64,000 nucleotides of DNA from Chryseobacterium echinoideorum. Its GTDB lineage: Bacteria > Bacteroidota > Bacteroidia > Flavobacteriales > Weeksellaceae. A program made the position numbers and the translations under genes. Below, piece after piece: positions 11,519 through 37,415 of this stretch. The stretch spans positions 186,001 to 250,000 of the forward strand of contig NZ_VKNW01000001.1 of assembly GCF_007474535.1 (NCBI RefSeq), given 5' to 3'. Numbering within the stretch: the stretch's first letter is position 1; every line of letters begins with the position of its first letter. Below the pieces are notes generated by a model. It searched no databases. It was not told where the DNA came from and saw nothing but the letters and a program-made list of their open reading frames with translations.

Positions 11519-11537
11519 AAGTGTTAATAATACATTT
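11519..11537. promoter_or_regulatory. Predicted AraR operator 1 (GH3-GH51)
   Basis: AAGTGT-TAATAAT-ACATTT, an imperfect palindrome shared with sites at 16361, 24673 and 37397. It ends 16 bases before a TAnnTTTG box, so it covers the expected -33 region. Assignment to the Nudix-type regulator encoded at 23925 is an inference from the distribution of the sites. Confidence 0.65.
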
Positions 11538-11553
11538 ATTAAAAATAGAATCT

Positions 11554-11561
11554 TATCTTTG
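11554..11561 (+). promoter_or_regulatory. -7 box of the GH3-GH51 promoter
   Basis: TATCTTTG fits the Bacteroidota consensus TAnnTTTG exactly and lies 72 bases before the GH3 start codon. Confidence 0.6.
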
Positions 11562-11633
11562 TTATCAACCGAATATCAATATTCTTTTTTTGAAATCAAT
11601 TTGATATTTCAATGATGTTTTAAATCAATTATA

Positions 11634-14261
11634 ATGAAAAGAATCTTATTTTCCTTATCGATCTTCATCTGCGCTTTCTCTCCCGCACAGAATTTCAAAT
11701 ATCCCTTCCAAAACCCCAATCTCCCAGTTGAACAAAGAATCGAAAACCTTCTTGGATTATTAACGGTGGATGAGAAAATCGGGATGATGATGGACAATTC
11801 CAAAGCGGTTCCGAGACTGGAAATTCCGGGTTACGGCTGGTGGAACGAAGCACTTCACGGCGTGGCAAGAGCAGGAACAGCAACGGTTTTTCCTCAAGCC
11901 ATTGGAATGGCAGCAACCTGGGATGTTCCGGAACATCTCAAAACTTTTGAAATGATTTCCGACGAAGCCAGAGCAAAATACAACAAATCGTTTGACGAAT
12001 CCCAGAAAACAGGTCGTTACGAAGGTCTCACTTTCTGGACGCCAAACATCAATATTTTCCGCGACCCGAGATGGGGAAGAGGTCAGGAAACCTATGGTGA
12101 AGATCCGTATCTGACCTCCGTTTTGGGCGTTGCTGCAGTCAAAGGCTTGCAGGGAAATGACCCAAAATATTTTAAAACGCACGCCTGCGCAAAACATTTT
12201 GCTGTTCACAGCGGTCCGGAATGGAACCGCCACTCTTACAACGCCGAAGTTTCCAAACGAGATTTGTATGAAACGTATCTTCCGGCTTTTAAAGCACTGG
12301 TTTTGGAAGGAAATGTAAGGGAAGTGATGTGTGCTTACAACGCATTCGATGGACAGCCGTGCTGCGCCAACAATACTTTGCTGACAGAAATTCTCCGTGG
12401 AAAATGGAACTACGATGGAATGGTCGTTTCCGATTGCTGGGCATTGGCAGATTTCTATCAGAAACAATATCATGGAACACATCCCGACGAAAAAACTACC
12501 GCCGCAGATGCTTTGAAACATTCTACAGATCTGGAATGTGGCGATACATATAATAATTTAAACAAATCTCTCGCAAGCGGATTAATCACTGAAAAAGACC
12601 TTGATGTTTCGATGCGAAGAATTCTGAAAGGTTGGTTTGAGTTGGGAATGCTCGACCCAAAATCTTCAGTTCACTGGAACTCAATTCCATATTCTGTTGT
12701 TGATTCTGATGAGCACAAAAAACAGGCTTTAAAAATGGCTCAGAAATCTATTGTTCTGATGAAAAATGAGAATAATGTTTTGCCTTTAAATAAAAACATC
12801 AAAAAAATCGCTGTTGTCGGTCCAAACGCCGATGACGGACTGATGCAGTTGGGAAATTATAACGGAACACCTTCGTCAATCGTTACCATTTTGGATGGAA
12901 TCAAAGCCAAATTTCCAAACGCGGAAATCATTTATGAAAAAGGAAGCGAAATCGCCGACCCATCTTCCAGAACTTCGCTTTATCAAAAGTTTTTAAGCCA
13001 GAAAAACGGCGAAAAAGGAATGAAGGTTGAGTTTTTCAACAACAATGAATTCAAAGGGAAATCTGCCAATATTTCTGTCAATAAAACAGGAATCAACTAC
13101 AACAGCTTTGGCGGAACTCAGCTTGCTCCAAATGTAGGAAGAGAAAATACGTCGTCGATTATTTCAGGCGTATTCAAAAGTCCTTACACAGGCGATGTGA
13201 TTCTTTCACCTTCAACATCAGATGTTTATACACTTTTTGTTGACGGAAAAGAAATTGCCACCAGAAAAGGCCCCGACGCAAGGCATCCTTCAGAATTTCC
13301 TGTAAAAATGGAAAAAGGTAAAGAATATCAGATTGAGTTGCGCCACACCCAAAAGGGAAAATATGTAAGCATCACTTTTGACGTGTACAGAAAAGACCCT
13401 GTGAATTTCGCTGCTGTAAGGGAAAAAGTGAAAGATGCGGATGTGATTATTTTTGCAGGCGGACTTTCTCCAATTCTGGAAGGCGAAGAAATGATGGTGA
13501 ATGCAGAAGGTTTCAAAGGCGGCGATAAAACTTCCATCGACCTTCCTAAGGTTCAGCGAGAATTGTTAGCGGAATTAAGAAAAACAGGAAAACCTGTGGT
13601 TTTTGTGCTTTGTACAGGAAGTTCACTTGGTTTAGCACAGGATGAAAAAAATTACGATGCTTTGCTGAATGCTTGGTACGGTGGACAATCCGGCGGAACT
13701 GCCGTTGCAGATGTTTTGGCAGGCGATTACAATCCGTCCGGAAGATTGCCAATTACGTTCTACAAGAATCTGGAACAGCTTGATAATAATCTTTCAAAAA
13801 CCAGCAAGCATCAAGGTTTTGAAAATTACGATATGGAGGGAAGAACCTACCGTTATATGACTGAAAAACCGTTGTACGCTTTCGGACATGGGTTAAGTTA
13901 TTCAAAATTTATTTATGGAAATGCTAAACTGAACAAAAATACCATCCATTCCAATGAAAATATTACAATCACAATTCCTGTTACCAATACCTCGGAAAGA
14001 GACGGAGAGGAAGTGGTTCAGGTCTATGTGAAAAGAAATAATGATTCTTCGGCACCAGTAAAGACTTTGAGAGCTTTTGAAAGAGTTTTGATTAAATCTA
14101 AGGAAACAAAAAATATTCAGTTAACAATTTCTAAAGATTCATTTACATTTTATGATGAAAAAGTGGATGATTTGACTCCAAAAGCAGGAGATTACACCAT
14201 TTTCTACGGCGGAACTTCCGATGAATCCGGATTAAAAAGTATTCAAATGAAAGTCAATTAA
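11634..14261 (+). CDS. GH3 beta-xylosidase/glucosidase with PA14 insert
   Basis: 875 residues: signal peptide (1 to about 18), GH3 N-terminal barrel (about 25-360) with nucleophile D267 in VVSDCWA, GH3 C-terminal domain interrupted by a PA14 domain (about 460-590, starting MKVEFFNNNEFKG) and a C-terminal fibronectin type III-like domain (about 780-870). This plan is the one seen in secreted beta-xylosidases such as Prevotella Xyl3A, and the xylan context favours beta-xylosidase (or alpha-L-arabinofuranosidase side activity) over beta-glucosidase. The enzyme would release xylose from xylo-oligosaccharides in the periplasm. An AraR-type site and a -7 box precede it, so arabinose control is predicted. 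GH51 follows closely and is probably co-transcribed. Confidence 0.88.
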   Translation: MKRILFSLSIFICAFSPAQNFKYPFQNPNLPVEQRIENLLGLLTVDEKIGMMMDNSKAVPRLEIPGYGWWNEALHGVARAGTATVFPQAIGMAATWDVPEHLKTFEMISDEARAKYNKSFDESQKTGRYEGLTFWTPNINIFRDPRWGRGQETYGEDPYLTSVLGVAAVKGLQGNDPKYFKTHACAKHFAVHSGPEWNRHSYNAEVSKRDLYETYLPAFKALVLEGNVREVMCAYNAFDGQPCCANNTLLTEILRGKWNYDGMVVSDCWALADFYQKQYHGTHPDEKTTAADALKHSTDLECGDTYNNLNKSLASGLITEKDLDVSMRRILKGWFELGMLDPKSSVHWNSIPYSVVDSDEHKKQALKMAQKSIVLMKNENNVLPLNKNIKKIAVVGPNADDGLMQLGNYNGTPSSIVTILDGIKAKFPNAEIIYEKGSEIADPSSRTSLYQKFLSQKNGEKGMKVEFFNNNEFKGKSANISVNKTGINYNSFGGTQLAPNVGRENTSSIISGVFKSPYTGDVILSPSTSDVYTLFVDGKEIATRKGPDARHPSEFPVKMEKGKEYQIELRHTQKGKYVSITFDVYRKDPVNFAAVREKVKDADVIIFAGGLSPILEGEEMMVNAEGFKGGDKTSIDLPKVQRELLAELRKTGKPVVFVLCTGSSLGLAQDEKNYDALLNAWYGGQSGGTAVADVLAGDYNPSGRLPITFYKNLEQLDNNLSKTSKHQGFENYDMEGRTYRYMTEKPLYAFGHGLSYSKFIYGNAKLNKNTIHSNENITITIPVTNTSERDGEEVVQVYVKRNNDSSAPVKTLRAFERVLIKSKETKNIQLTISKDSFTFYDEKVDDLTPKAGDYTIFYGGTSDESGLKSIQMKVN

Positions 14262-14279
14262 TCAACCATCAGACTGTGA

Positions 14280-14310
14280 AACCTTACAGGTTTTTAAAAT
14301 GTATAAGGTT
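14280..14310. repeat. Family D inverted repeat, degenerate copy
   Basis: AACCTTACAGGTTTT and TGTATAAGGTT form an imperfect inverted repeat. It resembles the perfect copy at 32420-32450. It lies between GH3 and GH51 and argues against translation starting upstream of 14342. Confidence 0.55.
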
Positions 14311-14341
14311 ATCAATAAAAAACCAACTTTTCAACTCAGAA

Positions 14342-16324
14342 ATGAAAACAAAAACCAAAATATTTACAGCCGCCATTTCACTAAGTGTTGCATTTTTTTC
14401 TGCTCAAAATGGGAATGTAAAAAAGCATTTCCTAGATTTAGACGGAACTTCTACCAACATCAAAATCCAGCCAACGATGTATGGGATTTTCTTTGAAGAC
14501 ATCAATTTTGCAGCCGATGGTGGAATTTATGCTGAATTAATCAAGAACCGAAGTTTTGAACTTGATGAACCGTTGACGGGCTGGAAACAGCAAAACACAA
14601 AAACACTTTCTCCCAATCTGGATTCCGGTTTTCTGACGATTATAACCGATAAATCAAAAACGAATAAAAACTATGCAAGAATCACGGTCTGGAACGACAA
14701 AAATTATGTGTTGGAAAACGAAGGATTCAGAGGAATTGGTTTTCATCAAGGTGAAAAATATGATTTCAGTTTTAATTTAGAAAACATTTCGGGAAATATT
14801 TCTACCATCAACACAAGTCTGATTGATGAAAACGGAACAGTGATTTCTTCAGTTTCTACAATCATAAAAGGCGGAGGCTGGCAAAAATATAATGCTGTTT
14901 TCACACCTTCCAAAACAGTTGAAAAAGCTAAAGTTCAAATCACTTTTACAGGAAAAGGGATTGTGAATATGGATATGATTTCATTGTTTCCGCAAGACAC
15001 CTGGAAAGACAGAAAAGGAGGTTTAAGAAAAGACTTGGTTCAGAAATTATATGATTTACAACCGGGATTTTTACGTTTTCCGGGTGGCTGTATTGTTGAA
15101 GGTAGAACGTTGGCAGAACGATATCAATGGAAAAAAACAATTGGTAAAGTGGAAGACCGTGAAAATCTTATCAATAAATGGAACAACGGATTTTCACATC
15201 GTCTCACACCGGATTATTGGCAGTCTTTTGGGCTTGGTTTTTTTGAATACTTCCAGCTGGCGGAAGATTTAGGCGCAGAACCACTTCCGATTTTAAGTTG
15301 CGAAATGGCTTGTCAGTTCAACACCGCAGAGCTTGTAAAAATGGAAGATTTAGACCCTTACGTTCAGGATGCTTTAGATTTGATTGAATTTGCAAATGGC
15401 GATTCTAGTACAAAATGGGGAAAAATCCGTGCTGAAATGGGACATCCGAAACCATTCAATATGAAATATATCGGTGTAGGGAATGAACAGTGGGGAGAAG
15501 ATTACATCGAACGTTACAAGATTTTTGAAAAAGCCATTCATTCCAAATATCCTGATATTAAAATCATTTCAGGAAGCGGACCTTCGCCCGACGGAGAATT
15601 TTTTGAATACGGTTGGAAAGAACTCAAAAAACTCAATGCACAAATTGTCGATGAGCATTATTACAATTCACCGGAGTGGTTTACAAAAAATGCCGGAAGA
15701 TATGATGAATATGACCGTTCCGGACCAAAAGTTTTCGCAGGAGAATACGCTGCCCAATCGGTCGGAGTAGTAAAACCTGACAATAAAAATAACTGGCAGA
15801 CCGCATTATCAGAAGCCGCTTTTATGACCGGGCTTGAGAGAAATGCCGATGTTGTCACGATGACTTCTTATGCGCCGCTTTTGGCTCACGCAGATGGTTG
15901 GCAATGGACACCGGATTTAATTTGGTTTAATAATTTACATTCTTACGCAACGCCCAATTATTACGTTCAAAAATTGTTTTCAAACAACAAAGGAACCGAT
16001 TTAATTAAAATTTCTGAAAACGGAAATGCTGTAAAAGGACAAAATGAACTTTTCGCATCCGCAGTGAAAGACGGTAAAAAGAATGAAGTAATCATTAAAA
16101 TTGTCAATACAGATTCTCACGAAAAATCAATTGAAATCAATCCGAAAAATATCAAATTAGGAAGCAAACTGACTAAAACAACCTTAACAGCATCACAACT
16201 TTCTGATGAAAATAATTTTCAAACAGAAAACATAAAACCTCTTGAAGAGAATTCTGTGATTAAAAAGGGGAAACTTTCTGTTCAAATCCCAGCCAATTCT
16301 TTCGTTGTTTTAAAGATAAAATAG
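14342..16324 (+). CDS. GH51 alpha-L-arabinofuranosidase
   Basis: 660 residues from the ATG at 14342. An in-frame ATG at 14276 would add 22 residues encoded mostly by an inverted repeat, and the signal peptide (MKTKTKIFTAAISLSVAFFSAQ) begins at 14342. An N-terminal carbohydrate-binding-like domain (about 70-220) precedes a barrel with acid/base E382 (GVGNEQW) and nucleophile E468 (FAGEYA), then a C-terminal beta domain. GH51 enzymes release terminal alpha-L-arabinofuranose from arabinoxylan and arabinan. The location after GH3 and before araBDA, together with the upstream AraR-type site, fits arabinose-responsive expression. Many GH51 enzymes are cytoplasmic; the clear signal peptide puts this one outside the inner membrane. 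Confidence 0.92.
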   Translation: MKTKTKIFTAAISLSVAFFSAQNGNVKKHFLDLDGTSTNIKIQPTMYGIFFEDINFAADGGIYAELIKNRSFELDEPLTGWKQQNTKTLSPNLDSGFLTIITDKSKTNKNYARITVWNDKNYVLENEGFRGIGFHQGEKYDFSFNLENISGNISTINTSLIDENGTVISSVSTIIKGGGWQKYNAVFTPSKTVEKAKVQITFTGKGIVNMDMISLFPQDTWKDRKGGLRKDLVQKLYDLQPGFLRFPGGCIVEGRTLAERYQWKKTIGKVEDRENLINKWNNGFSHRLTPDYWQSFGLGFFEYFQLAEDLGAEPLPILSCEMACQFNTAELVKMEDLDPYVQDALDLIEFANGDSSTKWGKIRAEMGHPKPFNMKYIGVGNEQWGEDYIERYKIFEKAIHSKYPDIKIISGSGPSPDGEFFEYGWKELKKLNAQIVDEHYYNSPEWFTKNAGRYDEYDRSGPKVFAGEYAAQSVGVVKPDNKNNWQTALSEAAFMTGLERNADVVTMTSYAPLLAHADGWQWTPDLIWFNNLHSYATPNYYVQKLFSNNKGTDLIKISENGNAVKGQNELFASAVKDGKKNEVIIKIVNTDSHEKSIEINPKNIKLGSKLTKTTLTASQLSDENNFQTENIKPLEENSVIKKGKLSVQIPANSFVVLKIK

Positions 16325-16360: not shown

Positions 16361-16379
16361 AAGTGTAATATTTACATTT
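16361..16379. promoter_or_regulatory. Predicted AraR operator 2 (araBDA)
   Basis: AAGTGT-AATATTT-ACATTT, with a perfect TGTAA/TTACA core. It ends 16 bases before the TATATTTG box, the same spacing as at operator 1. Confidence 0.7.
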
Positions 16380-16395: not shown

Positions 16396-16403
16396 TATAT
16401 TTG
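16396..16403 (+). promoter_or_regulatory. -7 box of the araBDA promoter
   Basis: TATATTTG matches TAnnTTTG and lies 58 bases before the araB start codon. Confidence 0.6.
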
Positions 16404-16461: not shown

Positions 16462-18159
16462 ATGAAGAAATATGTTATCGGGTTAGATTATGGTACGGAT
16501 TCGGTGCGTGCAGTCCTGATTGATACAGAAAACGGAGCCGAACTCGCAACATCCGTAAGCTACTACCAAAGATGGAAAGAAGGAAAATTCTGCCAACCGG
16601 AACAAAATCAATTCCGTCAACATCCGCTTGACCATATTGAAGGCTTGGAAAAGACCATTTCCGATGTTGTCAAAGAAAGTGGAGTAGCCCCCGAAAGTAT
16701 TGTCAGCATTTGTATTGATACCACTGGTTCATCACCGCTTCCGGTAAACAAAGAAGGAATTGCATTGGCTCTGACTCCCGGATTCGAACAAAATCCAAAT
16801 GCAATGATGGTATTGTGGAAAGACCATACTTCAATTTCAGAAGCCGAGGAAATCAACCATTTGGCGAGAAATTGGGGCGGCGAAGATTATACCAGATTTG
16901 AAGGCGGAATCTATTCCTCCGAATGGTTTTGGGCGAAAATTCTCCACATCAACAGAGTTGATGACAATGTTAAAAATTCGGCTTACAGCTGGATGGAGCA
17001 TTGCGATTATATCACGTTTCTCCTTTCCGACCATCAGGATTTATCAACTTTCAAAAGAAGCCGTTGTGCGGCCGGTCACAAAGCAATGTGGCACGAATCG
17101 TGGAATGGACTTCCGTCTGAGGATTTCCTTGGTCAGTTAGACCCGTCTTTAGCCAAACTTCGGGACAGATTGTACGGTAAAACTTACACTTCCGATAAGG
17201 TTGCAGGAAATTTAAATCAAGAATGGGCAGCAAAACTAGGCTTGACAACCAACACCGTGATTGCCGTAGGAACTTTCGACGCCCATTCCGGAGCAGTCGG
17301 CGCAAAAGTAGAGGAGAACACGCTTATCCGAATTATGGGAACTTCCACCTGCGATATTATGGTTGCACCTAACGAAATTATCGGAGACAAAACGGTCAAA
17401 GGAATCTGCGGACAGGTAGATGGTTCTGTGATTCCGGGATTGATGGGTCTTGAGGCTGGTCAGTCTGCGTTCGGAGATTTGCTGGCTTGGTACAAAGACA
17501 TTCTGATGTGGCCAACTCAAAATATTCTGATGAATTCTACTATCATCGATGACAATCAAAAACAACTTTTAAAAGAGGAAATAGAAAATAATCTCATCCG
17601 AAATCTGACTTTGGAGGCAGAAAAAATTCCTCTTTCCGAAGCCGTTCCTATTGCATTGGATTGGGTGAACGGCAGACGAACGCCCGATGCCAATCAAGAA
17701 CTGAAAGCGGCTATCAGCAATCTTTCACTCGGAACAAAAGCACCGCATATTTTCAAAGCGTTGGTGAATGCCATTTGTTTCGGTTCCAAAAAAATCGTTG
17801 ACCGCTTCGAAGAAGAAGGCGTAAAAATCGAAAAAGTTATCGGAATTGGTGGTGTTGCAAGAAAATCGCCTTTCATTATGCAGACCTTGGCAAATGTCCT
17901 GAATATGCCTATTGTCGTAGCTGCATCCGACCAGGCTCCGGCATTGGGAGCAGCGATTTACGCAGCCGTTGCAGCAGGAATTTATCCGAATGTCCGAGAC
18001 GCAAGTCAAAAAATGGGTTCCGATTTCGAAGCCGAATATTTCCCGCAGGCAGAACACGTAGAAAAGTATGCAGAATTAATGAGTCAATATCAAATTCTCG
18101 CAGACTTCACAGAAGATAATATCAAATTGAAAAAGAAGTTGAAAGTTGATAGTTTGTAA
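16462..18159 (+). CDS. araB: Ribulokinase
   Basis: 565 residues, an FGGY-family kinase of the usual ribulokinase length. The N-terminus carries the phosphate-binding motif GLDYGTDSVRAVLID and the C-terminal half carries GIGGVARKSPF and SDQAPALGAAIYA, typical of AraB. It phosphorylates L-ribulose to L-ribulose-5-phosphate in the cytoplasm. The gene heads the araB-araD-araA-galM-symporter string and has an AraR-type operator and a TAnnTTTG promoter directly upstream. The order araB-araD-araA is common in Bacteroidota. The family assignment is firm; alternative FGGY kinases such as xylulokinase are less likely given araD and araA next door. Confidence 0.95.
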   Translation: MKKYVIGLDYGTDSVRAVLIDTENGAELATSVSYYQRWKEGKFCQPEQNQFRQHPLDHIEGLEKTISDVVKESGVAPESIVSICIDTTGSSPLPVNKEGIALALTPGFEQNPNAMMVLWKDHTSISEAEEINHLARNWGGEDYTRFEGGIYSSEWFWAKILHINRVDDNVKNSAYSWMEHCDYITFLLSDHQDLSTFKRSRCAAGHKAMWHESWNGLPSEDFLGQLDPSLAKLRDRLYGKTYTSDKVAGNLNQEWAAKLGLTTNTVIAVGTFDAHSGAVGAKVEENTLIRIMGTSTCDIMVAPNEIIGDKTVKGICGQVDGSVIPGLMGLEAGQSAFGDLLAWYKDILMWPTQNILMNSTIIDDNQKQLLKEEIENNLIRNLTLEAEKIPLSEAVPIALDWVNGRRTPDANQELKAAISNLSLGTKAPHIFKALVNAICFGSKKIVDRFEEEGVKIEKVIGIGGVARKSPFIMQTLANVLNMPIVVAASDQAPALGAAIYAAVAAGIYPNVRDASQKMGSDFEAEYFPQAEHVEKYAELMSQYQILADFTEDNIKLKKKLKVDSL

Positions 18160-18483: not shown

Positions 18484-19182
18484 ATGAGCATCTATAAAGA
18501 ACTCCAGAGAGAATGTTACGAAGCCAATATGCAGTTGGATGCCTTGAAGCTGGTCGTCTACACATTCGGAAACGTAAGTGCCGTCGACCGTGACAAGGGA
18601 ATCTTTGCCATCAAACCGAGCGGCGTTCCTTACGAATTATTGAAGCCGGAAGATATTGTGATTTTAGATTACGATGCCAATGTGGTTGAAGGAAATTTAA
18701 AACCATCTTCCGACACCAAAACCCACGCTTACCTTTATAAAAACTGGGAAAACATTGGCGGAATTTCTCATACCCACGCTATTTATTCGGTAGCTTGGGC
18801 GCAGGCTCAAATGGACATTCCTATTTTTGGAACGACTCACGCAGACCATCTGACAACAGATATTCCGTGCGCACCACCAATGCGGGATGATTTAATCGAA
18901 GGAAATTACGAATACAACACCGGAATCCAGATTTTGGACTGCTTCAAAGAAAAAAAACTGTCTTACGAAGAAGTAGAAATGGTTCTCATCGGAAATCACG
19001 GACCGTTTACCTGGGGTAAAAATGCAGACAAAGCCGTTTACAACAGCAAAGTTCTCGAAACCATTGCAGAAATGGCGTATCGCACAAGACAAATCAACCC
19101 GGATGCGCCACGCCTGAAAGATTCACTCATTAAAAAACATTACGAACGAAAACATGGCAAAAATGCCTATTACGGACAGTAA
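18484..19182 (+). CDS. araD: L-ribulose-5-phosphate 4-epimerase
   Basis: 232 residues, a class II aldolase/AraD fold enzyme. The metal-binding histidines are visible as H96 and H98 in SHTHAIYS and H172 in GNHGPFTWG, and the GTTHADH motif that follows is typical of AraD. It converts L-ribulose-5-phosphate to D-xylulose-5-phosphate, the entry point to the pentose phosphate pathway. It stands between araB and araA, separated from araB by 324 bases of palindromic repeats and from araA by 76 bases. No promoter box was recognised directly upstream, so it is probably read from the araB promoter through the repeats. Confidence 0.95.
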   Translation: MSIYKELQRECYEANMQLDALKLVVYTFGNVSAVDRDKGIFAIKPSGVPYELLKPEDIVILDYDANVVEGNLKPSSDTKTHAYLYKNWENIGGISHTHAIYSVAWAQAQMDIPIFGTTHADHLTTDIPCAPPMRDDLIEGNYEYNTGIQILDCFKEKKLSYEEVEMVLIGNHGPFTWGKNADKAVYNSKVLETIAEMAYRTRQINPDAPRLKDSLIKKHYERKHGKNAYYGQ

Positions 19183-19258: not shown

Positions 19259-20755
19259 ATGTTAACACCTCTCAATAAAAAAGAAATCTGGTTCATCACT
19301 GGAAGCCAGCATTTATACGGACCTGAAACATTGGCTCAAGTTGCAGAACATTCACAGAAAATTGTTGAAGCGCTGAATGCTTCATCATCCATTCCTGTAA
19401 AAGTAGTTTTAAAGCCAACGGTAAAAACTACGGAAGAAATTTTCGAAACCCTTACAGCCGCCAATTTTGCAAAAGACTGTATTGGTATAGTCACCTGGAT
19501 GCACACGTTTTCACCTGCCAAAATGTGGATTCGTGGTTTGACCGCTTTGCAAAAACCATTGCTGCATTTACATACGCAGTTCAATCAGGATATTCCGTGG
19601 TCTGCGATGGATATGGATTTTATGAACCTGAATCAGGCGGCACACGGTGACCGTGAATTTGGATTTATGGTAAGCCGTCTTCGCAAAAACCGAAAAGTGG
19701 TTGTCGGACATTGGGCTGACGAAAGAGTTCAAAAACAAATCGGAGACTGGAGCCGTGTTGCGGCAGGTTGGGACGATTGGCAAGGTGCAAAATTCGCTCG
19801 TTTTGGAGATAATATGAGATATGTTGCCGTAACCGATGGTGATAAAGTAGAAGCGGAAACCAAATTCGGATTTTCGGTAAACACTTGGGGAATCGGAGAT
19901 TTGGTAAGTGTTATCAATTCCATTGGCGATGGCGAAATCAAAACTTTGATGGAAGAATATGAAGCCTCATACAAAATGGCAGAATCTCTTCTTTCAGGCG
20001 GAAGCAACAGAAAATCTCTTGAAGTAGCTGCAAGAATAGAATTAGGTTTAGAAAAATTCCTGAAAGACGGAAATTTCAAAGGTTTCTCAGATACTTTTGA
20101 AGACCTTCACGGTTTGGAGCAACTTCCGGGAATTGCCGTTCAGAGGTTAATGGAAAAAGGTTATGGTTTCGCAGGAGAAGGTGACTGGAAAACTGCCGCT
20201 TTAGTTCGTACGATGAAAACGATGGGACAAGGTCTTGAAGGAGGAAATGCCTTTATGGAAGATTATACCTATCATTTGAATCCTTCAAATCCTTCGGTTT
20301 TAGGCTCTCATATGCTGGAAGTTGACCCTGTTTTGGCGGTTGACAAACCGTCTTGTGAAATTCATCCGTTGGGAATTGGTGGAAAAGCTGACCCGGTTCG
20401 TTTGGTTTTCAATTCAAGAGGAAATCTTGATTCTCTCAATGCTGCTCTTATGGATTTCGGAAATCATTTCAGGCTGTTAATTAACAAAACAAAAGCGTTG
20501 GAAATCACTGAAGAATTACCAAAACTTCCTGTGGCAAGAGTTCTTTGGAAGCCGCTTCCTGATTTGTACACGGCTGCAGAAGCCTGGATTTTGGCTGGTG
20601 GAGCGCATCACACGTGTTACAGTGAAAACATCAGTGCAGAGCAGCTGGAAGATTTTGCGGAAATTGCAGGAATTGAATCTCTTGTTATCGATGAAGACAC
20701 AAAAATCCGTGATTTTAAGAATACCCTTCGCTGGAATGAAATTTATTATCGTTAA
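19259..20755 (+). CDS. araA: L-arabinose isomerase
   Basis: 498 residues, the standard AraA length. It opens with [19 protein letters not shown], the AraA hallmark, and keeps the family motifs [23 protein letters not shown] and [12 protein letters not shown]. It isomerises L-arabinose to L-ribulose with a Mn2+-type cofactor in the cytoplasm. Together with araB and araD it completes conversion of arabinose to xylulose-5-phosphate. It follows araD by 76 bases and precedes the epimerase lipoprotein by about 105 bases. Confidence 0.97.
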
Positions 20756-23924: not shown

Positions 23925-24611
23925 TTAAATCTTAAACATAAACCCTTCCGCCAGTTTTTTCTTATATTTTTCTTCATCAAAACGGTACAAGAAAGAACCC
24001 TTTTTAGACGAAGTCATGTCCTTTTCCTCCGTTTTCACAAGAATATCCAGCGCATTGATTTTGCTGATGAAATTCCGTTTGTCATACTGCTCATTGAAAA
24101 TCGCTTCATATAAACTCTGAAGATCTTTCATCGTGAATTTTTCCGGTAAAAGTTCGAAACCGATAGGTCTTGTAGACGCTCTTCTTCTCAGTCTCAGAAC
24201 GGCATCTTGCACCATTTCGTTATGGTCGAAAATTAAAGTCGGAAAATCTTGAAAGTCAAACCATTTTGCGCTGTACTTTTCATTGATCTGAATGTTCTTT
24301 TCAATATTGATCAGTGCATAATATGAGATCGACATAATTCTGGCAGTAGGTTCACGGTCGATTTGGGTATAGGAATTGAGTTGTTCTAAATAGATATTTT
24401 CCAGTCCGGTAAGCGTATTCAGGACTCGGTGCGCCGCTTCATCAGAGGTTTCTTCATTTCCTATAAAACCGCCCATCAAGGACCATTCTCCCATTTTAGG
24501 CTCAAAATTCCTTTGTACCAGGAGGATTTTAAGATTTTCGCCGTCGAATCCGAAAATAATACAGTCTACAGCTACCAAATGTCGTGGAAAATGAGAATAG
24601 TCTTGTGTCAT
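23925..24611 (-). CDS. araR: Nudix-type transcriptional regulator, AraR-like
   Basis: 228 residues. The N-terminal Nudix domain (about 8-145) has the box GGFIGNEETSDEAAHRVLNTLTGL, but where active hydrolases have REuxEExGu this reads RVLNTLTGL, so the metal-binding glutamates are gone. The C-terminal part (about 150-228, from PEKFTMKDLQSLYEAIF) is a winged-helix domain of the NrtR family. This is the plan of AraR of Bacteroides thetaiotaomicron, a Nudix-family repressor that senses L-arabinose. The gene lies beside the arabinose genes. A palindromic site found upstream of araB, GH3 and transaldolase also lies upstream of this gene, suggesting autoregulation. The symbol is given from domain plan plus context; the ligand is inference. 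Confidence 0.85.
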   Translation of the reverse strand: MTQDYSHFPRHLVAVDCIIFGFDGENLKILLVQRNFEPKMGEWSLMGGFIGNEETSDEAAHRVLNTLTGLENIYLEQLNSYTQIDREPTARIMSISYYALINIEKNIQINEKYSAKWFDFQDFPTLIFDHNEMVQDAVLRLRRRASTRPIGFELLPEKFTMKDLQSLYEAIFNEQYDKRNFISKINALDILVKTEEKDMTSSKKGSFLYRFDEEKYKKKLAEGFMFKI

Positions 24612-25002: not shown

Positions 25003-25131
25003 TTAATTTTTATGATAAGCCTCTTTCCTTTTTATTATTTTTTCAAGACTTTAATATAAGTTTTTTTTAGATTTCATCGGCTCATTATATAAAATTCTTT
25101 GATATATTGATTCTTTCTTTTATTTTTAGAA

Positions 25132-29550: not shown

Positions 29551-31005
29551 ATGAACAACTCATCTCAAAAAATATCTGTCGTTGAGAAAATCGGCTACAG
29601 TTTAGGAGATTTAGCCGCCAATCTGGTTTTCCAGACGTTGGTAACCTATTTGGCTTATTTTTACACCGATATTTACGGATTAAAACCGGAAGATGCCTCC
29701 ATCATTACACTTGTTGTCGGATTATTGGCTGGTTTTGTTTTTAATCCTTTGATTGGGGCTTTAGCAGACAGAACACGCACGAAATGGGGGAAATTCCGTC
29801 CGTGGATTTTATTAACGGCAATTCCGTTGGGTGCAGCGGCACTTTTTGCGTTCAGCACACCCGATTTTTCTTATAAAGGAAAAATGATTTATGCAGCAGT
29901 TACTTACTCTGTTTTACTGTTGCTGTATGCCGCCAATAATTTACCTTATGCAGCTTTGAGTGGCGTGATTACAGGCGATATGGGCGAACGTAACAGTATT
30001 TCTTCTTACCGTTTTGTAGCTGTAATGTTTGCGCAGTTTTTTGTTCAGGTATTTATGTTGCCGATTATTTTGTCTGCGGGACACGGCGACAAAGCAGCCG
30101 GAATCGAGGTGGTAATGACCTGGCTTGCAATTATAGGAACGGTAATGTTGCTCATCACTTTTCTCACGACTAAAGAAAGAGTCATTCCAAAGCCGGAGCA
30201 GGAATCTACTTTAGGTGCCGATTTAAAGGATTTAAAGAAAAACAAGCCGTGGATTATTATGTTGTCGGTTACTGCGTTGATTTTCATTACTTTGGCAATG
30301 AAAGGCGGTTCATATGTGTATTATTTTAATAATTATGTAGATGAAGCTTCACTTCAGCAATTTATATCACCAATTACTGCATTTTTCAATTCCATCGGAA
30401 TGAATTTCTTCGGAGAAGACCCTCGTTCAGCAGGTTTCGGATTGTTCAATGCAGGCGGAATCATTATGATGATTATCGGCATTACTTTCTCGAAAAAGTT
30501 TGCAGACAAATATGGGAAAAAAGATGCGTTCATCGCTTCTTTGTTTATTTCAACATTATTTGTTTTAGCATTTATATTTTATCCGCCAAAATCAGTCGGA
30601 TTAATGTTTTTGTCCCAGATTTTACACGGTTTCTTCTACGGAATCGGAACGCCATTACTTTGGGCGATGATTGCCGACGTTGCCGATTATTCTGAATGGA
30701 AAAACAACAGACGTGCGACAGCCATTATTTTCTCGGCAATGATGGTCGGTTTGAAAGTTGGATTAAGCATTGGAAGTTCATTAGTTGCATTAATTATCGG
30801 AAAATACGGTTATATTTCCTCAGAAGGTGCAGTCAACGTGATACAGCCGGAAACCGTTTCCACAGGTGCCAAAATGCTGGTCAGCGTATTTCCGTCAATC
30901 CCGTTCTTTTTAGCGTGCGGATTGCTGATGTTCTACGAAATCAATAAGAAAAAAGAAATCGAAATCGAGCACGACCTTAAAGAAAGAAGAATAGCGAAAG
31001 ATTAA
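29551..31005 (+). CDS. GPH-family glycoside/pentoside symporter (MFS)
   Basis: 484 residues with about 12 membrane segments. The N-terminus KIGYSLGDLAANLVFQTL and the motif NPLIGALADRTRTKWGKFRPWIL are hallmarks of the glycoside-pentoside-hexuronide (MelB/XynP/YicJ-like) branch. Such carriers take up disaccharides and short xylosides with H+ or Na+. It is next to the GH10 xylanase and a signal-less GH43, so import of xylo-oligosaccharides for cytoplasmic cleavage is the likely task. The stop codon is followed by a 278-base gap full of palindromic repeats. Confidence 0.88.
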   Translation: MNNSSQKISVVEKIGYSLGDLAANLVFQTLVTYLAYFYTDIYGLKPEDASIITLVVGLLAGFVFNPLIGALADRTRTKWGKFRPWILLTAIPLGAAALFAFSTPDFSYKGKMIYAAVTYSVLLLLYAANNLPYAALSGVITGDMGERNSISSYRFVAVMFAQFFVQVFMLPIILSAGHGDKAAGIEVVMTWLAIIGTVMLLITFLTTKERVIPKPEQESTLGADLKDLKKNKPWIIMLSVTALIFITLAMKGGSYVYYFNNYVDEASLQQFISPITAFFNSIGMNFFGEDPRSAGFGLFNAGGIIMMIIGITFSKKFADKYGKKDAFIASLFISTLFVLAFIFYPPKSVGLMFLSQILHGFFYGIGTPLLWAMIADVADYSEWKNNRRATAIIFSAMMVGLKVGLSIGSSLVALIIGKYGYISSEGAVNVIQPETVSTGAKMLVSVFPSIPFFLACGLLMFYEINKKKEIEIEHDLKERRIAKD

Positions 31006-31283: not shown

Positions 31284-32405
31284 ATGAAAAAAATAGTCGC
31301 ATTATTAGGAATTTTAACTTTGACCGTCTCGTGCAAAACAGCAAGTTCGGCATCCTCAAAAAATTCCCTGAAAGACGCCTACAAAAATAAATTCTACATC
31401 GGTACCGCGATGAGTCTTCCACAGATTTACGAGAAGGAGGTAAAATCTGTAGAAATTATTAAAAATCAGTTCAGTTCCATCGTTGCAGAAAACTGTATGA
31501 AATCTATGTTTCTTCAACCTGAAGAAGGCAAATTCTTTTTCGATGATGCAGATAAATTCGTAGAATTCGGAGAAAAAAATAAAATGTTCATCATCGGTCA
31601 CACGTTGATTTGGCATTCCCAATTACCAAAATGGTTTTTCGTAGACAAAGACGGAAAAGACGTTTCTCCGGAAGTCTTAAAACAAAGAATGAAAAGTCAC
31701 ATTACCACCGTTGTCACCAGATACAAAGGTCGTGTCAAAGGTTGGGATGTAGTGAATGAAGCCATTATGGAAGACGGAACATATCGCAAAAGCAAATTTT
31801 ACGAAATTCTGGGTGAAGAATTTATTCCGCTCGCTTTCCAATATGCGCAGGAAGCTGACCCGAATGCAGAACTCTATTACAACGATTACAACGAATGGTT
31901 TCCGGAAAAAGTAAAAACCGTTACCAAAATCGTAAAAGATTTGAAATCCAGAGGAATCAGAATTGATGGGGTAGGAATGCAAACCCACGTAGGATTGGAC
32001 ACTCCGAAAATGGAAGAATACGAAAAAGCAATTATTGATTATGCAGCAGCCGGAGTAAAAATCAATGTTACCGAAATGGAAATCAGCGCTCTGCCTTCAC
32101 CTTGGGGAACTTCCGCAAACGTTTCCGATAAAGTAGAATATGAAGCAAAAATGAATCCTTACACAGCTGGACTTCCCGAAAACGTAAAAACAGAATGGGA
32201 AAGCCGTTATCTGGATTTTTTCAGATTATTCATCAAACATCAGGATAAAATCAGAAGAGTAACTCTGTGGGGAACTACCGATACCCAATCCTGGAAAAAT
32301 GATTTCCCGGTAAAAGGCAGAACCGATTATCCGTTACTTTTTGACCGGAATTATCAGACAAAACCTGTGGTGGAAAAAATCATTCAGTTAACAAAAGAAA
32401 AATAA
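31284..32405 (+). CDS. GH10 endo-beta-1,4-xylanase, lipoprotein
   Basis: 373 residues. A lipoprotein signal ([17 protein letters not shown], acceptor C17) is followed by a single GH10 barrel. The acid/base is E159 in GWDVVNEAI and the nucleophile is E264 in [20 protein letters not shown] and [13 protein letters not shown] are further family motifs. No carbohydrate-binding module is present. It cuts the xylan backbone into oligosaccharides. As a lipoprotein it would be held at the outer membrane, on one face or the other. The neighbours (GPH symporter upstream, cytoplasmic GH43 and GH67 downstream) complete the xylan part of the locus. Confidence 0.95.
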
Positions 32406-32419: not shown

Positions 32420-32450
32420 AACCTTATAGGTTTAAAAAACCTATAAGGTT
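32420..32450. repeat. Family D inverted repeat, perfect copy
   Basis: AACCTTATAGGTTT and AAACCTATAAGGTT are perfect complements separated by three bases. A related degenerate copy is at 14280-14310. It has no T run on the + strand and lies between GH10 and GH43. Confidence 0.7.
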
Positions 32451-32500
32451 TGAAAAATCTATCCTCTATAAGTCTATTATCTAAAAATCTAAACTATAAA

Positions 32501-33469
32501 ATGAACAAAGCAAAATACCTTTTCCCTAAAGATTATATGGCAGACCCGTCTGTACACGTTTTTGAAGGCAAGTTGTACATTTACCCTTCACACGACCGTG
32601 AAAGCGGCATCGAAGAAAACGACAACGGAGACCATTTTGATATGAATGATTATCACGTTTTCTCTCTTGATAATGTAGAAAATGGCGAAATTACAGACCA
32701 TGGTGTTGTCCTTTCGGTAAAAGATATTCCTTGGTCGGGAAGGCAATTGTGGGATTGTGATGTGGCATTCAAAAATGGAAAATATTATATGTATTTTCCG
32801 TTAAAAGATAAAAATGATATTTTCAGAATCGGTGTTGCGGTAAGCGACAAACCTTACGGTCCGTTCATTCCGGAAAAACATCCGATGATGGGAAGTTACA
32901 GCATCGACCCTTGTATTTTTGAAGAGGATGGAAAACATTATATGTATTTTGGCGGAATCTGGGGCGGACAATTGCAGCGATACAGAAACAACAAAGCCTT
33001 AGAATCTGCAGTAATTCCAAATGATAACGAACAGGCAATTCCTTCAAAAGTTGTTTTATTGAGCGATGATATGCTGGAGTTTGGAGAAGAGCCTAAAGAT
33101 GTTCTGATTCTGGATGAAAGCGGAAATCCTTTGCTTCACGGTGACAAGCATCGATTTTTTGAAGCTTCGTGGATGCACAAATACAACGACAAATATTATT
33201 TCTCATATTCCACCGGAGACACGCATTTAATATGTTATGCAACAGGAGACAATCCTTATGGTCCATTTACTTTTCAGGGAGAAATTCTGACGCCTGTTGT
33301 TGGTTGGACAACCCATCACAGTATTGTTGAATTTAAAGGAAAATGGTATCTGTTCTTCCACGATTCTGTTCCGAGCGAAGGAAAAACCTGGCTCAGAAGT
33401 ATGAAAGTAATCGAATTGGAATATGACAACGATGGTAAAATTAAAACCATTGAAGGTTTAGAAGAATAA
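32501..33469 (+). CDS. Cytoplasmic GH43 beta-xylosidase/arabinofuranosidase
   Basis: 322 residues from the ATG at 32501. An upstream TTG at 32450 would add 17 residues encoded at the edge of an inverted repeat and is unlikely. No signal peptide is present. The GH43 triad is D15 (MADPSV), D136 (SIDPCIF) and E221 (FFEASWMHKY). It resembles the subfamily 1 branch, which holds mainly intracellular xylosidases. It would hydrolyse xylo-oligosaccharides brought in by the GPH symporter encoded at 29551. This contrasts with the two secreted GH43-CBM6 proteins at 3739 and 5255. There is no CBM. Confidence 0.88.
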   Translation: MNKAKYLFPKDYMADPSVHVFEGKLYIYPSHDRESGIEENDNGDHFDMNDYHVFSLDNVENGEITDHGVVLSVKDIPWSGRQLWDCDVAFKNGKYYMYFPLKDKNDIFRIGVAVSDKPYGPFIPEKHPMMGSYSIDPCIFEEDGKHYMYFGGIWGGQLQRYRNNKALESAVIPNDNEQAIPSKVVLLSDDMLEFGEEPKDVLILDESGNPLLHGDKHRFFEASWMHKYNDKYYFSYSTGDTHLICYATGDNPYGPFTFQGEILTPVVGWTTHHSIVEFKGKWYLFFHDSVPSEGKTWLRSMKVIELEYDNDGKIKTIEGLEE

Positions 33470-33617: not shown

Positions 33618-35651
33618 ATGCGCTATTTCCGACTGCATATCCTATTATTTCTAATGATTCCATTAACAATTTTCGCAGAAGACGGAAGTCAGCTTTGGCT
33701 TCGATTTCCGGCTAAAAATGGAATTTCAGCAGATAAAATTATTTCCAAAGGAAACAATCCGACTTTGAATATAGCCAAAAAAGAATTAATGAATCATTGG
33801 CAAGGTCAGGAAATTGAACTTCGAACCGACAAATCATTAAAAAATCTGAAAGGCGGTTATACCATAAAATCAGTTCAGCATAAACTGGTCATTTCTGCCG
33901 AAAAAGAAATCGGATTGTTATACGGAGTTTACCATATCTTGAGACTTCAGCAGACGAAAGCTTCTACAACCAATCTCAACATTACAGAAAAACCTTCTTA
34001 CGATGTCAGAATCCTTAATCATTGGGATAATCTGGATGGCACGATTGAACGCGGTTATGCCGGACATTCACTTTGGAAATGGGACGAGTTACCAAATACG
34101 ATTTCGCCGAGATACGAAGAATATGCAAGAGCGAATGCTTCGATTGGAATTAACGCAACTGTTCTCAACAACGTCAATGCTTCACCAAATATGCTCCGCA
34201 AAGACTATCTGGAAAAAGTAAAAGCACTTGCAGATATTTTCAGACCTTACGGAATCAAAGTTTATTTATCTGTTAATTTTTCATCACCCAAAGTTTTAGG
34301 TGGATTAGAAAATTCTGATCCTTTAAATAAAGAGGTTCAGAAATGGTGGAAAGATAAAGCATCAGAAATTTATAAATTAATTCCTGACTTTGGAGGTTTT
34401 TTGGTGAAGGCCAATTCCGAAGGACAACCTGGTCCACAGGATTACGGAAGAACACACGCTGATGGCGCTAATATGATGGCTGACGTTTTGAAACCTTACG
34501 GTGGGATCGTGATGTGGAGAGCGTTTGTGTACAGTCCGAGCAAAGAAGACCGAGCAAAACAGGCTTATCTGGAATTTGTGCCACTTGATGGAAAATTCAG
34601 GGATAATGTCATTATTCAGATTAAAAACGGACCTGTTGATTTTCAGCCTCGTGAAGCGTTTAATCCACTTTTCGGAGCTTTGAAAAAAACGCCGGAAATG
34701 ATTGAATTTCAAATTACTCAGGAATATTTGGGTTTCTCAAATCATTTAGTTTTTCTCGCACTTTTGTTTAAAGAAACTTTAGACAGCGACACATATTCTG
34801 AAGGAAAAGGTTCTACTATTGCCAAAATTACGGACGGAACTTTAAGACATGCAAAATTAACTGCCATTTCTGCTGTTGCAAACATTGGAGAAGATAAAAA
34901 CTGGACGGGTCATCATTTTGCACAAGCCAATTGGTATGCTTTCGGACGTTTAGCTTGGAGCCACAATTTGACTTCGGAACAGATTGCCGACGAATGGATA
35001 AAAATGACCTTCACTGACAATGAAAAATTCCTTACTCCTGTAAAAGAAATGATGCTTACTTCAAGAGAAACTGCCGTAGATTATATGATGCCGCTTGGTT
35101 TGCACCATATTTTCGCAGGTGGACATCATTACGGTCCGGAACCGTGGGGAGATTACAAAGGCGGAAGACCAGACTGGTCACCTGTGTATTATCATCAGGC
35201 TAATGCAGAGGGAATCGGTTTTGACAGAACCAAAACGGGAAGCAATGCTGTTTCACAATATTTTTCTCCACTCAACGACATCTACGGAAATATTAAAACA
35301 ACTCCCGAAAACCTAATTCTATGGTTCCATCACGTTCCTTGGGATTATCAGATGAAAGATGGAAAAACATTGTGGGATGAATTGTGTTATAAATATGATA
35401 CAGGCGTAAAAAATGTCCGTGACTATCAAAAAGTTTGGGATAAAATGCAGCCTTATGTTGATGAGCAAAGATTTAAAGATGTTCAATCTAAATTTAAAAT
35501 TCAGGCAAAAGATGCTGTTTGGTGGAAGGATGCTTGTCTGTTGTATTTCCAGACGTTTTCAAAAATGCCGATTCCTTATGATATCGAAAGACCTGTTCAC
35601 GAGTTGGAAGATTTGAAAAAGATTAAACTCAATATGGGGCACCACAACTAA
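33618..35651 (+). CDS. GH67 alpha-glucuronidase
   Basis: 677 residues with a signal peptide (1 to about 20, ending IFAE). The order is the GH67 N-terminal domain (about 25-135), the barrel (about 135-460, with RILNHWDNLDGTIERGYAG near its start and GFLVKANSEGQPGPQDYGR) and the helical C-terminal domain (about 460-675, with MPLGLHHIFAGGHHYGP). All are characteristic of the family. GH67 enzymes remove (methyl)glucuronic acid from the non-reducing terminal xylose of short xylo-oligosaccharides. It complements the GH115 enzyme encoded at 8818, which can act on the polymer. A strong bidirectional terminator follows; this is the last gene of the hemicellulose block. Confidence 0.94.
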   Translation: MRYFRLHILLFLMIPLTIFAEDGSQLWLRFPAKNGISADKIISKGNNPTLNIAKKELMNHWQGQEIELRTDKSLKNLKGGYTIKSVQHKLVISAEKEIGLLYGVYHILRLQQTKASTTNLNITEKPSYDVRILNHWDNLDGTIERGYAGHSLWKWDELPNTISPRYEEYARANASIGINATVLNNVNASPNMLRKDYLEKVKALADIFRPYGIKVYLSVNFSSPKVLGGLENSDPLNKEVQKWWKDKASEIYKLIPDFGGFLVKANSEGQPGPQDYGRTHADGANMMADVLKPYGGIVMWRAFVYSPSKEDRAKQAYLEFVPLDGKFRDNVIIQIKNGPVDFQPREAFNPLFGALKKTPEMIEFQITQEYLGFSNHLVFLALLFKETLDSDTYSEGKGSTIAKITDGTLRHAKLTAISAVANIGEDKNWTGHHFAQANWYAFGRLAWSHNLTSEQIADEWIKMTFTDNEKFLTPVKEMMLTSRETAVDYMMPLGLHHIFAGGHHYGPEPWGDYKGGRPDWSPVYYHQANAEGIGFDRTKTGSNAVSQYFSPLNDIYGNIKTTPENLILWFHHVPWDYQMKDGKTLWDELCYKYDTGVKNVRDYQKVWDKMQPYVDEQRFKDVQSKFKIQAKDAVWWKDACLLYFQTFSKMPIPYDIERPVHELEDLKKIKLNMGHHN

Positions 35652-35654
35652 AAA

Positions 35655-36299: not shown

Positions 36300-36334
36300 A
36301 ATAAAAGTGTTTTAGATTACTAATATTGATACTG

Positions 36335-36452: not shown

Positions 36453-36460
36453 TAACTTTG
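36453..36460 (+). promoter_or_regulatory. -7 box of the AraC-type regulator gene
   Basis: TAACTTTG matches TAnnTTTG and lies 15 bases before the start codon, implying a short leader. Confidence 0.45.
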
Positions 36461-36475
36461 ATTGATAATTAAATT

Positions 36476-37348
36476 ATGAAACATCACAGTCCTGCATTTG
36501 AAGCCATCAATCCTAATATAGGGAGCAGTTTTACGAGTCTTAAGTTTCAGAGAAATGAGAATATAAAATCCCACGTTTGGCATTATCATCCTGAGATTGA
36601 ATTGATTTTTGTAAAAGGAGGTTCCGGCAAAAGGCAGATAGGAAGTAATATTTCTTACTTTACGGAAGGTGATCTGGTGTTGATTGGCAGTAATTTACCA
36701 CATTGTGGTTTAACCAATGAAAATACCAATAACGATTATGAAATGGTGATTCAGTTTAAGCCTGATTTTCTGGGTGAAAAGATTTGGGAAAATCCTGAAA
36801 TGAAAAAAATTCACGCCATGTTGGAAAAATCTAAAAGCGGAATGGTCTTTGGCGACGATGTGAAAAAAGTAATGAGAAAAAAGATTTCCCAGATGCATCA
36901 GTCAGAATCCTTAGAAAAACTGTTGAAGTTTTTTGAAATTCTTCACGAACTTTCTGTCACAGATGATTACAGAATTCTCAACGCCGGAAAATATTACCTG
37001 CAGACTCAGGTTGAGGATAACGAAAGGATCAATCATATCTTCAATTATGTAAAAGATCATTTTAAAGAGCAGATTACGTTGGACGAAATTGCCGATTTGG
37101 CGAATATGAAAGTGCCTTCTTTCTGCCGGTATTTCAAAAAAATCACCAATAAAACCTTCACTCAATTTGTCAATGAATATCGTATTACACATTCACTGAA
37201 ATTGCTTGCAGAAAAACCTTTGAGCATTACAGATGTTTGTTTTGAAAGCGGTTTTAATAATTTTAGCTATTTCAACAAAACCTTTAAGGAATTTATCAAG
37301 AAAAGTCCTTCTCAGTATAGAAAAGAGTTTAATTATGTGATGGAATGA
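36476..37348 (+). CDS. AraC-family regulator with N-terminal cupin domain
   Basis: 290 residues. The N-terminal half is a cupin ligand-binding domain (about 20-110, with HVWHYHPEIELIFVKGG and LIGSNLPHCG). The C-terminal AraC-type double helix-turn-helix (about 190-285) has FKEQITLDEIADLANMKVPS and DVCFESGFNNFSYFNKTFK. It is a cytoplasmic transcription factor; cupin-type AraC proteins of Bacteroidota commonly respond to sugars or small metabolites. It lies just upstream of the transaldolase gene, with 88 bases between. Its target genes are not shown by the sequence. The predicted arabinose operator in that gap points to another regulator for the pentose genes. Confidence 0.88.
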   Translation: MKHHSPAFEAINPNIGSSFTSLKFQRNENIKSHVWHYHPEIELIFVKGGSGKRQIGSNISYFTEGDLVLIGSNLPHCGLTNENTNNDYEMVIQFKPDFLGEKIWENPEMKKIHAMLEKSKSGMVFGDDVKKVMRKKISQMHQSESLEKLLKFFEILHELSVTDDYRILNAGKYYLQTQVEDNERINHIFNYVKDHFKEQITLDEIADLANMKVPSFCRYFKKITNKTFTQFVNEYRITHSLKLLAEKPLSITDVCFESGFNNFSYFNKTFKEFIKKSPSQYRKEFNYVME

Positions 37349-37373
37349 TATTTTTCTTAAAAATAAATTAAAC

Positions 37374-37381
37374 TAAAATTG
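37374..37381 (+). promoter_or_regulatory. Candidate -7 box for transaldolase-transketolase
   Basis: TAAAATTG differs from TAnnTTTG at one position. If used, transcription would begin inside or next to the operator at 37397, placing the operator as a roadblock instead of over the -33 region. Confidence 0.3.
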
Positions 37382-37396
37382 TTTATTTCATCAGTT

Positions 37397-37415
37397 AAGT
37401 GTATTTTTAACACTT
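37397..37415. promoter_or_regulatory. Predicted AraR operator 4 (transaldolase-transketolase)
   Basis: AAGTGT-ATTTTTA-ACACTT is a perfect inverted repeat in its arms and fits the AAGTGT-N7-ACAYTT pattern of operators 1-3. It ends 21 bases before the transaldolase start codon. Confidence 0.65.

Follow-up and report, generated by a model that had tools for sequence, protein, structure and literature searches.

The window analysed here is a 64,000-nucleotide stretch of the Chryseobacterium echinoideorum genome (bases 186001-250000 of contig 1; the assembly comprises 3.82 Mb in 31 contigs and is 99.97% complete). It carries a gene for a Nudix-family regulator, AraR, clustered with araB, araD and araA, and a 19-base palindrome recurs in front of these and other genes linked to pentose use. 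The features on which the argument depends are given below, with the basis of each gene assignment in brackets; the promoter elements are candidates read from the sequence.

11519-11537, plus strand: predicted AraR operator before GH3-GH51, arms GTGT / ATGT
11554-11561, plus strand: TATCTTTG, 16 nt downstream of the GH3 operator, matching the -7 box TAnnTTTG of Bacteroidetes
11634-14261, plus strand: GH3 glycoside hydrolase (Pfam)
14276-16324, plus strand: GH51-type alpha-L-arabinofuranosidase (Pfam arabinofuranosidase domains; the GH51 label is that of the first-pass annotation)
16361-16379, plus strand: predicted AraR operator before araB, arms GTGT / ATGT
16396-16403, plus strand: TATATTTG, putative araB -7 box 16 nt downstream of its operator
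16462-18159, plus strand: araB, FGGY kinase (Pfam)
18484-19182, plus strand: araD (NCBIfam)
19259-20755, plus strand: araA (NCBIfam)
23925-24611, minus strand: araR, Nudix domain and NrtR/AraR winged helix (Pfam, match to 5bs6, residues)
24673-24691, minus strand: predicted AraR operator before araR, arms GTGT / ATGT, 61 distinct contexts
25130-25148, plus strand: predicted AraR operator before GH127 (fifth site), arms ATGT / ATGT
25153-27528, plus strand: GH127 beta-L-arabinofuranosidase-like (Pfam); ATG 25153 is a likelier start than 25132, because the latter falls within the operator
37379-37381, plus strand: TTG, candidate -33 element, 20 nt before the box within the tal operator
37397-37415, plus strand: predicted AraR operator before tal, arms GTGT / GTGT
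37402-37409, plus strand: TATTTTTA, -7-like box contained in the tal operator
37437-38090, plus strand: tal, second transaldolase copy (Pfam)
38094-38942, plus strand: transketolase N half (Pfam)
39299-40384, plus strand: transketolase C half (Pfam), its real start probably further downstream, judged from lengths in relatives
41645-42832, plus strand: galactokinase, galK (Pfam)
42792-43865, plus strand: galactose-1-phosphate uridylyltransferase, galT (Pfam)

The first-pass annotation had proposed that copies of AAGTGT-N7-ACAYTT at 11519, 16361, 24673 (minus strand) and 37397 join the neighbouring genes in one AraR regulon. The coordinates, strands and sequences of all four were verified, the arms AAGTGT and ACA being invariant and the central bases A/T at all seven positions; the list was incomplete, since the GH127 site had been overlooked and a site before xylR lies outside the window. 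Shuffled sequences predict 0.02 occurrences of the motif in the window, and none of 100 shuffles matched the number observed. Genome-wide, AAGTGT-N7-ACAYTT occurs at six places (three for the reversed-pattern control), and the degenerate AARTGT-N7-ACAYTT, with G or A as third base, occurs at seven, the copies additional to the four being 25130 (GH127), C1:160052 (contig 1; before xylR and 26 kb outside the window on its left side) and C1:353945. Six of the seven are intergenic, span 63 kb and precede GH3-GH51, araB, araR, GH127, tal-tkt and xylR-xylB-xylA; in this pattern search of the whole genome, therefore, the motif is not scattered at random over intergenic positions, each intergenic copy lying before one of these gene groups. 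An Rfam scan of the window gave nothing at gathering score.

The 23925-24611 protein matches PF00293 (Nudix), PF21906 and PF19368 above gathering score, with Nudix, NrtR_WHD and AraR_C domains. Its closest solved chain is AraR of Bacteroides thetaiotaomicron (BtAraR; 5bs6, E 1.1e-69, 237.6 bits), the next best match having an E value of 1.9e-22. Arg34, Arg86 and His131, which form hydrogen bonds to arabinose in BtAraR, correspond to R34, R86 and H130, and Y5, F36 and F49 are likewise kept, so that the earlier expectation of a BtAraR-like regulator was borne out by a close relative with the arabinose-contacting residues retained. Lys179-Arg180-Asn181 of BtAraR are found as K178-R179-N180. The Nudix signature REUxEE reads R62-V-L-N-T-L, with three Glu replaced, and an impaired catalytic signature with two or three Glu replaced is the rule reported for AraR (PMC4666351). 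Four other NrtR-type genes accompany araR in the genome: xylR (C1:160358, followed by xylB, xylA, susC and susD), an NAD-type nrtR (C12:52378) and two genes on contig 6. The recognition helix reads DKRNF in AraR, DIKNF in XylR, DRRNF in the NAD-type NrtR, and RGNF and RNNF in the contig 6 paralogs. Thus, the 23925 protein differs from the XylR type both in its helix and in adjoining araBDA instead of xylBA, and from canonical NrtR in neighbouring ara genes and in scoring 120.6 bits against the NCBIfam NrtR equivalog, below the cut-off of 400.

The operator, with GTGT-type half-sites 7 bp apart, precedes the ara genes, one arm being ATGT at araB. The oligonucleotide used for BT0365 in electrophoretic mobility shift assays of BtAraR contains AAAGTGTAAAAAAGACACTT (PMC4666351), whose arms and spacing are identical to those of the operators in the window. 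Two sets were used to assess recurrence, 58 loci of relatives (888 kb) and 80 named AraR loci totalling 1.58 Mb (the best 80 of 503 found), with some genomes common to both. Exact motifs numbered 88 in the former set (0-3 for six altered controls) and 172 in the latter (0-2 for six controls with changed spacing, order or direction). The first gene downstream of the 172 motifs was that for AraR in 57 cases, GH127 in 50, araB in 37, susC in 15, GH51 in four, tal in two and GH97b in two; of the other five, two were unassigned, two lay within GH127 and one preceded a SASA esterase. AraR homologs at 94-96% identity were from Chryseobacterium or Epilithonimonas among the named matches. Meanwhile, the 80 loci take in Flavobacterium, Leeuwenhoekiella, Zunongwangia and Galbibacter as well as Weeksellaceae, and the operator therefore reaches beyond this family.

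The site before xylR allowed a comparison between genomes with and without AraR. Of 320 family genomes, 114 were found to have XylR orthologs and 86 to have AraR; 500 bp upstream of xylR were searched in 101 of the 114 XylR genomes, 13 AraR-positive genomes being outside the count. Two genomes were set aside (G245 and G291, assemblies 73% and 88% complete), in which AraR was not found and the site before xylR was present. Of 72 AraR-positive genomes, 66 have an exact AraR-type site before one or more of their xylR copies, whereas none of 27 AraR-negative genomes has one. Per xylR gene and with at most one mismatch, the contrast is 70/75 versus 0/27, with four controls at 0-5/75 and 0-2/27. In an earlier, smaller set (58 + 29 xylR genes), six spacing and reversal controls all gave zero at zero mismatches. 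An N9-spaced control with one mismatch was found in 39 of the 58 AraR-positive upstream regions, where it is the real site in a shifted frame; in the set of 102 genes, 63 of 64 such control matches were the genuine site read frame-shifted.

A different palindrome, ATGATAA-NN-TTATCAT (at most two mismatches), precedes 70 of 75 xylR genes in AraR-positive genomes and 17 of 27 in AraR-negative ones, mostly about 130 bp before the start codon. In the C. echinoideorum genome its exact form occurs only before xylR (C1:160211; L022:10211), and 118 places match with at most two mismatches compared with 56 for the control. This palindrome is likely the operator of XylR itself. Among the xylR genes that carry it, the AraR-type site is found in 64/70 versus 0/17, and unlike promoters are therefore not the sole source of the contrast. 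The palindrome is missing from the xylR genes of G134, G142, G147, G149, G171, G176, G216, G221, G252 and G285 and from five genes of AraR-positive genomes; several palindrome-less genes stand together on the xylR tree, and such genes may represent a second xylR lineage.

These results bear on which paralog owns the sites. A single base separates the xylR site AAGTGTGTTTTTAACACTT from the tal site AAGTGTATTTTTAACACTT, and XylR is an NrtR-family paralog, which makes it a serious rival: the double-GTGT sites before xylR and tal might belong to XylR and the others to AraR, forming two regulons with look-alike operators. We regard this as quite unlikely, since the xylR site was found with AraR (66/72) and never without it (0/27), a separate palindrome precedes most xylR genes, the XylR recognition helix lacks equivalents of Lys179 and Arg180, and one genome with XylR and tal but no AraR (G095) has the site at neither gene. 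The co-loss result and the separate palindrome before xylR led us to reject XylR as the protein to which the sites at tal and xylR belong. Binding by the NAD-type NrtR or by either contig 6 paralog is a very remote alternative. The helix DRRNF does resemble that of AraR; however, orthologs of NrtR (87-94% identical) occur in 23 of the 27 AraR-negative genomes, none of which has a site before xylR, and the contig 6 helices read RGNF and RNNF. The NAD-type nrtR gene (L410:2366-3043) lies near what we take to be macrodomain and ADP-ribosylglycohydrolase-like genes, which we counted against it as owner. Because the xylR site is lost together with AraR, the sites were assigned to AraR and not to any of the four paralogs. 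The two contig 6 genes encode Nudix/winged-helix regulators with other recognition helices (L411:3532-4281 and L412:3269-4009); one presumably adjoins an SDR-like gene and the other an MFS-like gene.

The pentose-cluster tal is the second transaldolase gene of the genome, and the other (C29:193527) has no site within 1.5 kb. The region before tal (before galK in genomes without tal) was inspected in 27 AraR-positive genomes, C. echinoideorum included: 15 have an exact site (12 at tal, three at galK), four have one with one mismatch (galK) and eight have none; in five more AraR-positive genomes (G294, G286, G188, G135 and G151) tal lies outside the examined piece. No site before tal or galK was found in the four AraR-negative genomes inspected (G095 for tal; G250, G259 and G285 for galK). 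The view that all targets are pentose-related is slightly too narrow, because galK and galT also follow the tal site on the same strand. The operator is retained in G119 (contig 35) and G078 (contig 1), where the pentose-cluster transaldolase seems broken (two frames; internal stop). A gene for an AraC-family regulator (36476-37348) lies directly upstream of the tal operator and adjoins galK in several relatives without tal; its product is possibly a second regulator of the tal/galK genes.

Taken together, the relationship to BtAraR, the match to a published operator, the recurrence in relatives and the absence of the xylR site without AraR support the AraR regulon, and it is highly probable, as judged from sequence comparison, that the six intergenic palindromes are operators for a single Nudix repressor, AraR, which senses L-arabinose. 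The predicted regulon does extend, as first proposed, from extracellular release to the non-oxidative pentose phosphate pathway, and it additionally takes in xylR-xylBA and, in some relatives, galK.

Several observations weigh against this interpretation. The seventh exact match in the genome, C1:353945, is intragenic (in an open reading frame, ORF, for an M23 peptidase), and looser forms of the motif are not enriched genome-wide: ARTGT-N7-ACAYT occurs at 20 places (26 for the reversed control) and the one-mismatch motif at 98 (108). The looser forms would suit a motif that is an A/T-rich promoter feature or chance, an explanation that we hold to be practically negligible for the full 19-mer in view of 172 matches versus 0-2 for altered controls in the same loci and 0.02 expected in the window. 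Shuffles and altered-pattern controls led us to reject it for the 19-mer and to keep it for the looser patterns, so only the full 19-mer is informative. The one-mismatch matches were rejected as further targets; four outside the pentose cluster were inspected among the matches listed, of which C23:130883 and C23:131418 fall within ORFs, C1:99563 overlaps an ORF end and C12:128407 lies about 35 bp before an ORF with no known link. The start of that last ORF resembles, as we take it, SecA. In the regulator, only four of the six DNA contacts of BtAraR (Lys179, Arg180, Asn181, Lys184, Lys204 and Arg205) are kept, K184 being replaced by S and R205 by K. Six AraR-positive genomes lack an exact xylR site: G218 and G078 have none with up to one mismatch, and G037, G043, G098 and G112 have one with one mismatch. 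In addition, 10 of the 27 AraR-negative xylR genes are also without the XylR-type palindrome, so the raw contrast may partly reflect another kind of xylR promoter. AraR presence changes 14 times on the tree of 102 xylR genes, and eight supported independent pairs gave four differences in the same direction, none in the opposite one and four pairs without difference (p 0.125). With fewer than six differing pairs the tree-corrected co-loss cannot reach 0.05; the pairs agree with co-loss and are too few for significance. Meanwhile, no tal/galK site is present in eight of 27 AraR-positive genomes, namely G010, G096, G208, G218, G043, G098, G112 and G157, in the first four of which tal or galK is embedded in a longer gene run. 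Finally, the araR and xylR operators lie upstream of where simple occlusion of a promoter would place them.

The position of the operators relative to the promoters suggests how AraR would act. The Bacteroidetes -7 box has the consensus TAnnTTTG and lies at -12 to -5 in F. psychrophilum (PMC9723704). This sequence begins 15-16 nt after the site in all 46 distinct araB contexts and all 12 distinct GH3 contexts, and therefore the operator covers the -33 region there. At tal and galK the operator covers a -7-like box: TAnnTTTA, close to TAnnTTTG, lies inside it in 16/16 exact contexts, with TTG 20 nt before this box in nine of them, as compared with 0/198 contexts of seven other non-xylR classes and 1/65 at xylR. 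Of 54 GH127 contexts, 46 have TATTTTAG or TATTTTTAG immediately before the site (15 have strict TAnnTTT[AG] there), and before susC, TAnnTTTG stands just before the site in 10 of 17. At araR, TAnnTTTG follows the operator by 26-28 nt in 27 of 65 contexts and by 36-38 nt in 24, and no TAnnTTTG is found near the xylR sites, the exact copies of which lie about 190-315 bp from the start codon.

According to the proposed mechanism, an AraR dimer would occupy each palindrome in the absence of arabinose and keep the target genes off. At most promoters the bound protein would stand in the way of RNA polymerase, since the operator lies over the -33 region (GH3, araB), includes a -7-like box (tal, galK) or begins directly behind a -7-like stretch (GH127). 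On entering the Nudix pocket, L-arabinose would then turn the winged helices and free the DNA, by analogy with BtAraR, for which this movement has been described (PMC4666351). That AraR activates some of these promoters instead of repressing them appears unlikely. The operator is locked at 15-16 nt from the -7 box in all 46 araB and 12 GH3 contexts, where it occupies the place expected for the -33 TTG, the two araR spacings differ by about one helix turn and the xylR site is far upstream, all of which would suit an activator. However, BtAraR loses DNA binding on binding L-arabinose while the arabinose operons are induced on arabinose (PMC4666351), which fits repression, and at tal, galK, GH127 and susC the operator coincides with a -7-like stretch or directly follows one.

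The arms of the operators differ between classes. AAGTGT on the far side and ACACTT on the near side are found, respectively, in 12 and 0 of 12 contexts at GH3, 44 and 1 of 46 at araB, 58 and 2 of 61 at araR, 0 and 2 of 54 at GH127, 14 and 16 of 16 at tal/galK, and 65 and 31 of 65 at xylR. These numbers do not represent independent events, since related genomes have ancestry in common. Two ATGT arms are thus present at GH127 (52 of 54 distinct contexts), one at araB, araR and GH3, and, for the most part, none at tal/galK. Lys179 makes contact with the initial G of GTGT in the crystal structure of BtAraR (PMC4666351), from which we infer that ATGT is the weaker arm. It is possible, though we put it forward tentatively, that the base at the position contacted by Lys179 is a strength code kept across the family, giving a graded opening with AraR above XylR. 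GH127 would then have two weak arms, araB, araR and GH3 one weak and one strong arm, and tal/galK and about half of the xylR sites two strong arms; rising arabinose would open the genes for polymer trimming, then those for arabinose catabolism, and then the pentose-phosphate, galactose and xylose genes. Alternatively, an ATGT near arm may reflect promoter needs of the near half and not weaker binding.

Binding, repression and graded release by AraR are predictions. If they are correct, a single sugar sensor switches on the trimming of arabinan and xylan, the catabolism of arabinose, the xylose operon and a second transaldolase-transketolase set in Chryseobacterium and its relatives. Arabinose released from side chains would turn on araBDA and the trimming enzymes as well as this second set and the xylose operon with its regulator, and this would account for the way in which xylose use could be licensed by arabinose cleaved off arabinoxylan side chains. 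The operators, which vary naturally at one contacted base, also offer a test of whether the identity of that base sets the order of gene opening.

The remaining genes of the locus, all on the plus strand, are the following.

20861-22018: aldose 1-epimerase, galM type (Pfam)
22022-23749: sodium:solute symporter, probable arabinose transporter (Pfam, NCBIfam)
27555-29468: SASA-type esterase (Pfam)
29551-31005: MFS_2 sugar transporter (Pfam)
31284-32405: GH10 xylanase (Pfam)
32450-33469: GH43 (Pfam)
33618-35651: GH67 glucuronidase (Pfam)
40583-41593: GFO/IDH/MocA oxidoreductase (Pfam)
43939-44736: HAD-type phosphatase (Pfam)

The gap between the transketolase halves (38943-39298) bears repeats and exceeds 350 bp, compared with 3-13 bp in some relatives, and co-transcription of tal and the N half with the C half and galK is therefore uncertain. 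The short palindromic CTCCTACGGAGC has four exact copies in the window, at 18190, 31193, 39210 and 39301 (0.08 expected at up to one mismatch). They sit in intergenic gaps, the 39301 copy overlapping the doubtful ORF start of the C half, and the sequence looks like a dispersed repeat of the repetitive extragenic palindromic (REP) type.

AraR and its arabinose and arabinan targets are already known, and the present system is an enlarged variant of that regulon. AraR has been reported in 17 Bacteroides and 15 Prevotella species, with published Bacteroides targets comprising arabinose catabolism, arabinofuranosidases, arabinanases, GH2/GH97 and SusCD (PMC4666351). In the examined text of that paper xylR, tal, tkt and galK do not appear among the AraR targets, and the words transaldolase and transketolase are absent from its main text (the supplementary tables being outside this). 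No link of AraR to tal/tkt or to XylR in Bacteroidetes was found in the papers searched, as judged mostly from titles, the openings of abstracts and selected passages, with subscription papers thinly covered. The system resembles that of BtAraR (BT0354; PDB 5bs6, 5dd4, 5ddg and 5deq) in its Nudix and AraR_C architecture, its arabinose-contacting residues, the DKRNF motif, the AAGTGT-N7-ACACTT type of operator and the clustering with araBDA. It differs in K184S and R205K, in the many operators with one or two ATGT arms, and in the predicted targets xylR, tal-tkt and galK, unnamed among the Bacteroides targets in that source.

Similar comparisons apply to the other regulators. As in the xylRBAE operon of Bacteroides (XylR BT0791, NrtR family), xylR here heads xylR-xylB-xylA followed by susC and susD, but an added upstream AraR-type operator is present in most AraR-positive genomes examined. 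Canonical NrtR, which is ADP-ribose-responsive and concerned with NAD metabolism, shares the fold family and is represented by the paralog at C12:52378, whereas AraR of the window has the arabinose pocket residues and adjoins ara genes. The LacI-family AraR and XylR repressors described in PMC10766802 likewise co-regulate arabinanase and xylanase genes (arabinose and xylan); in contrast, the AraR of the window is of the Nudix/NrtR type, and the site of the arabinose regulator precedes the gene of the xylose regulator.

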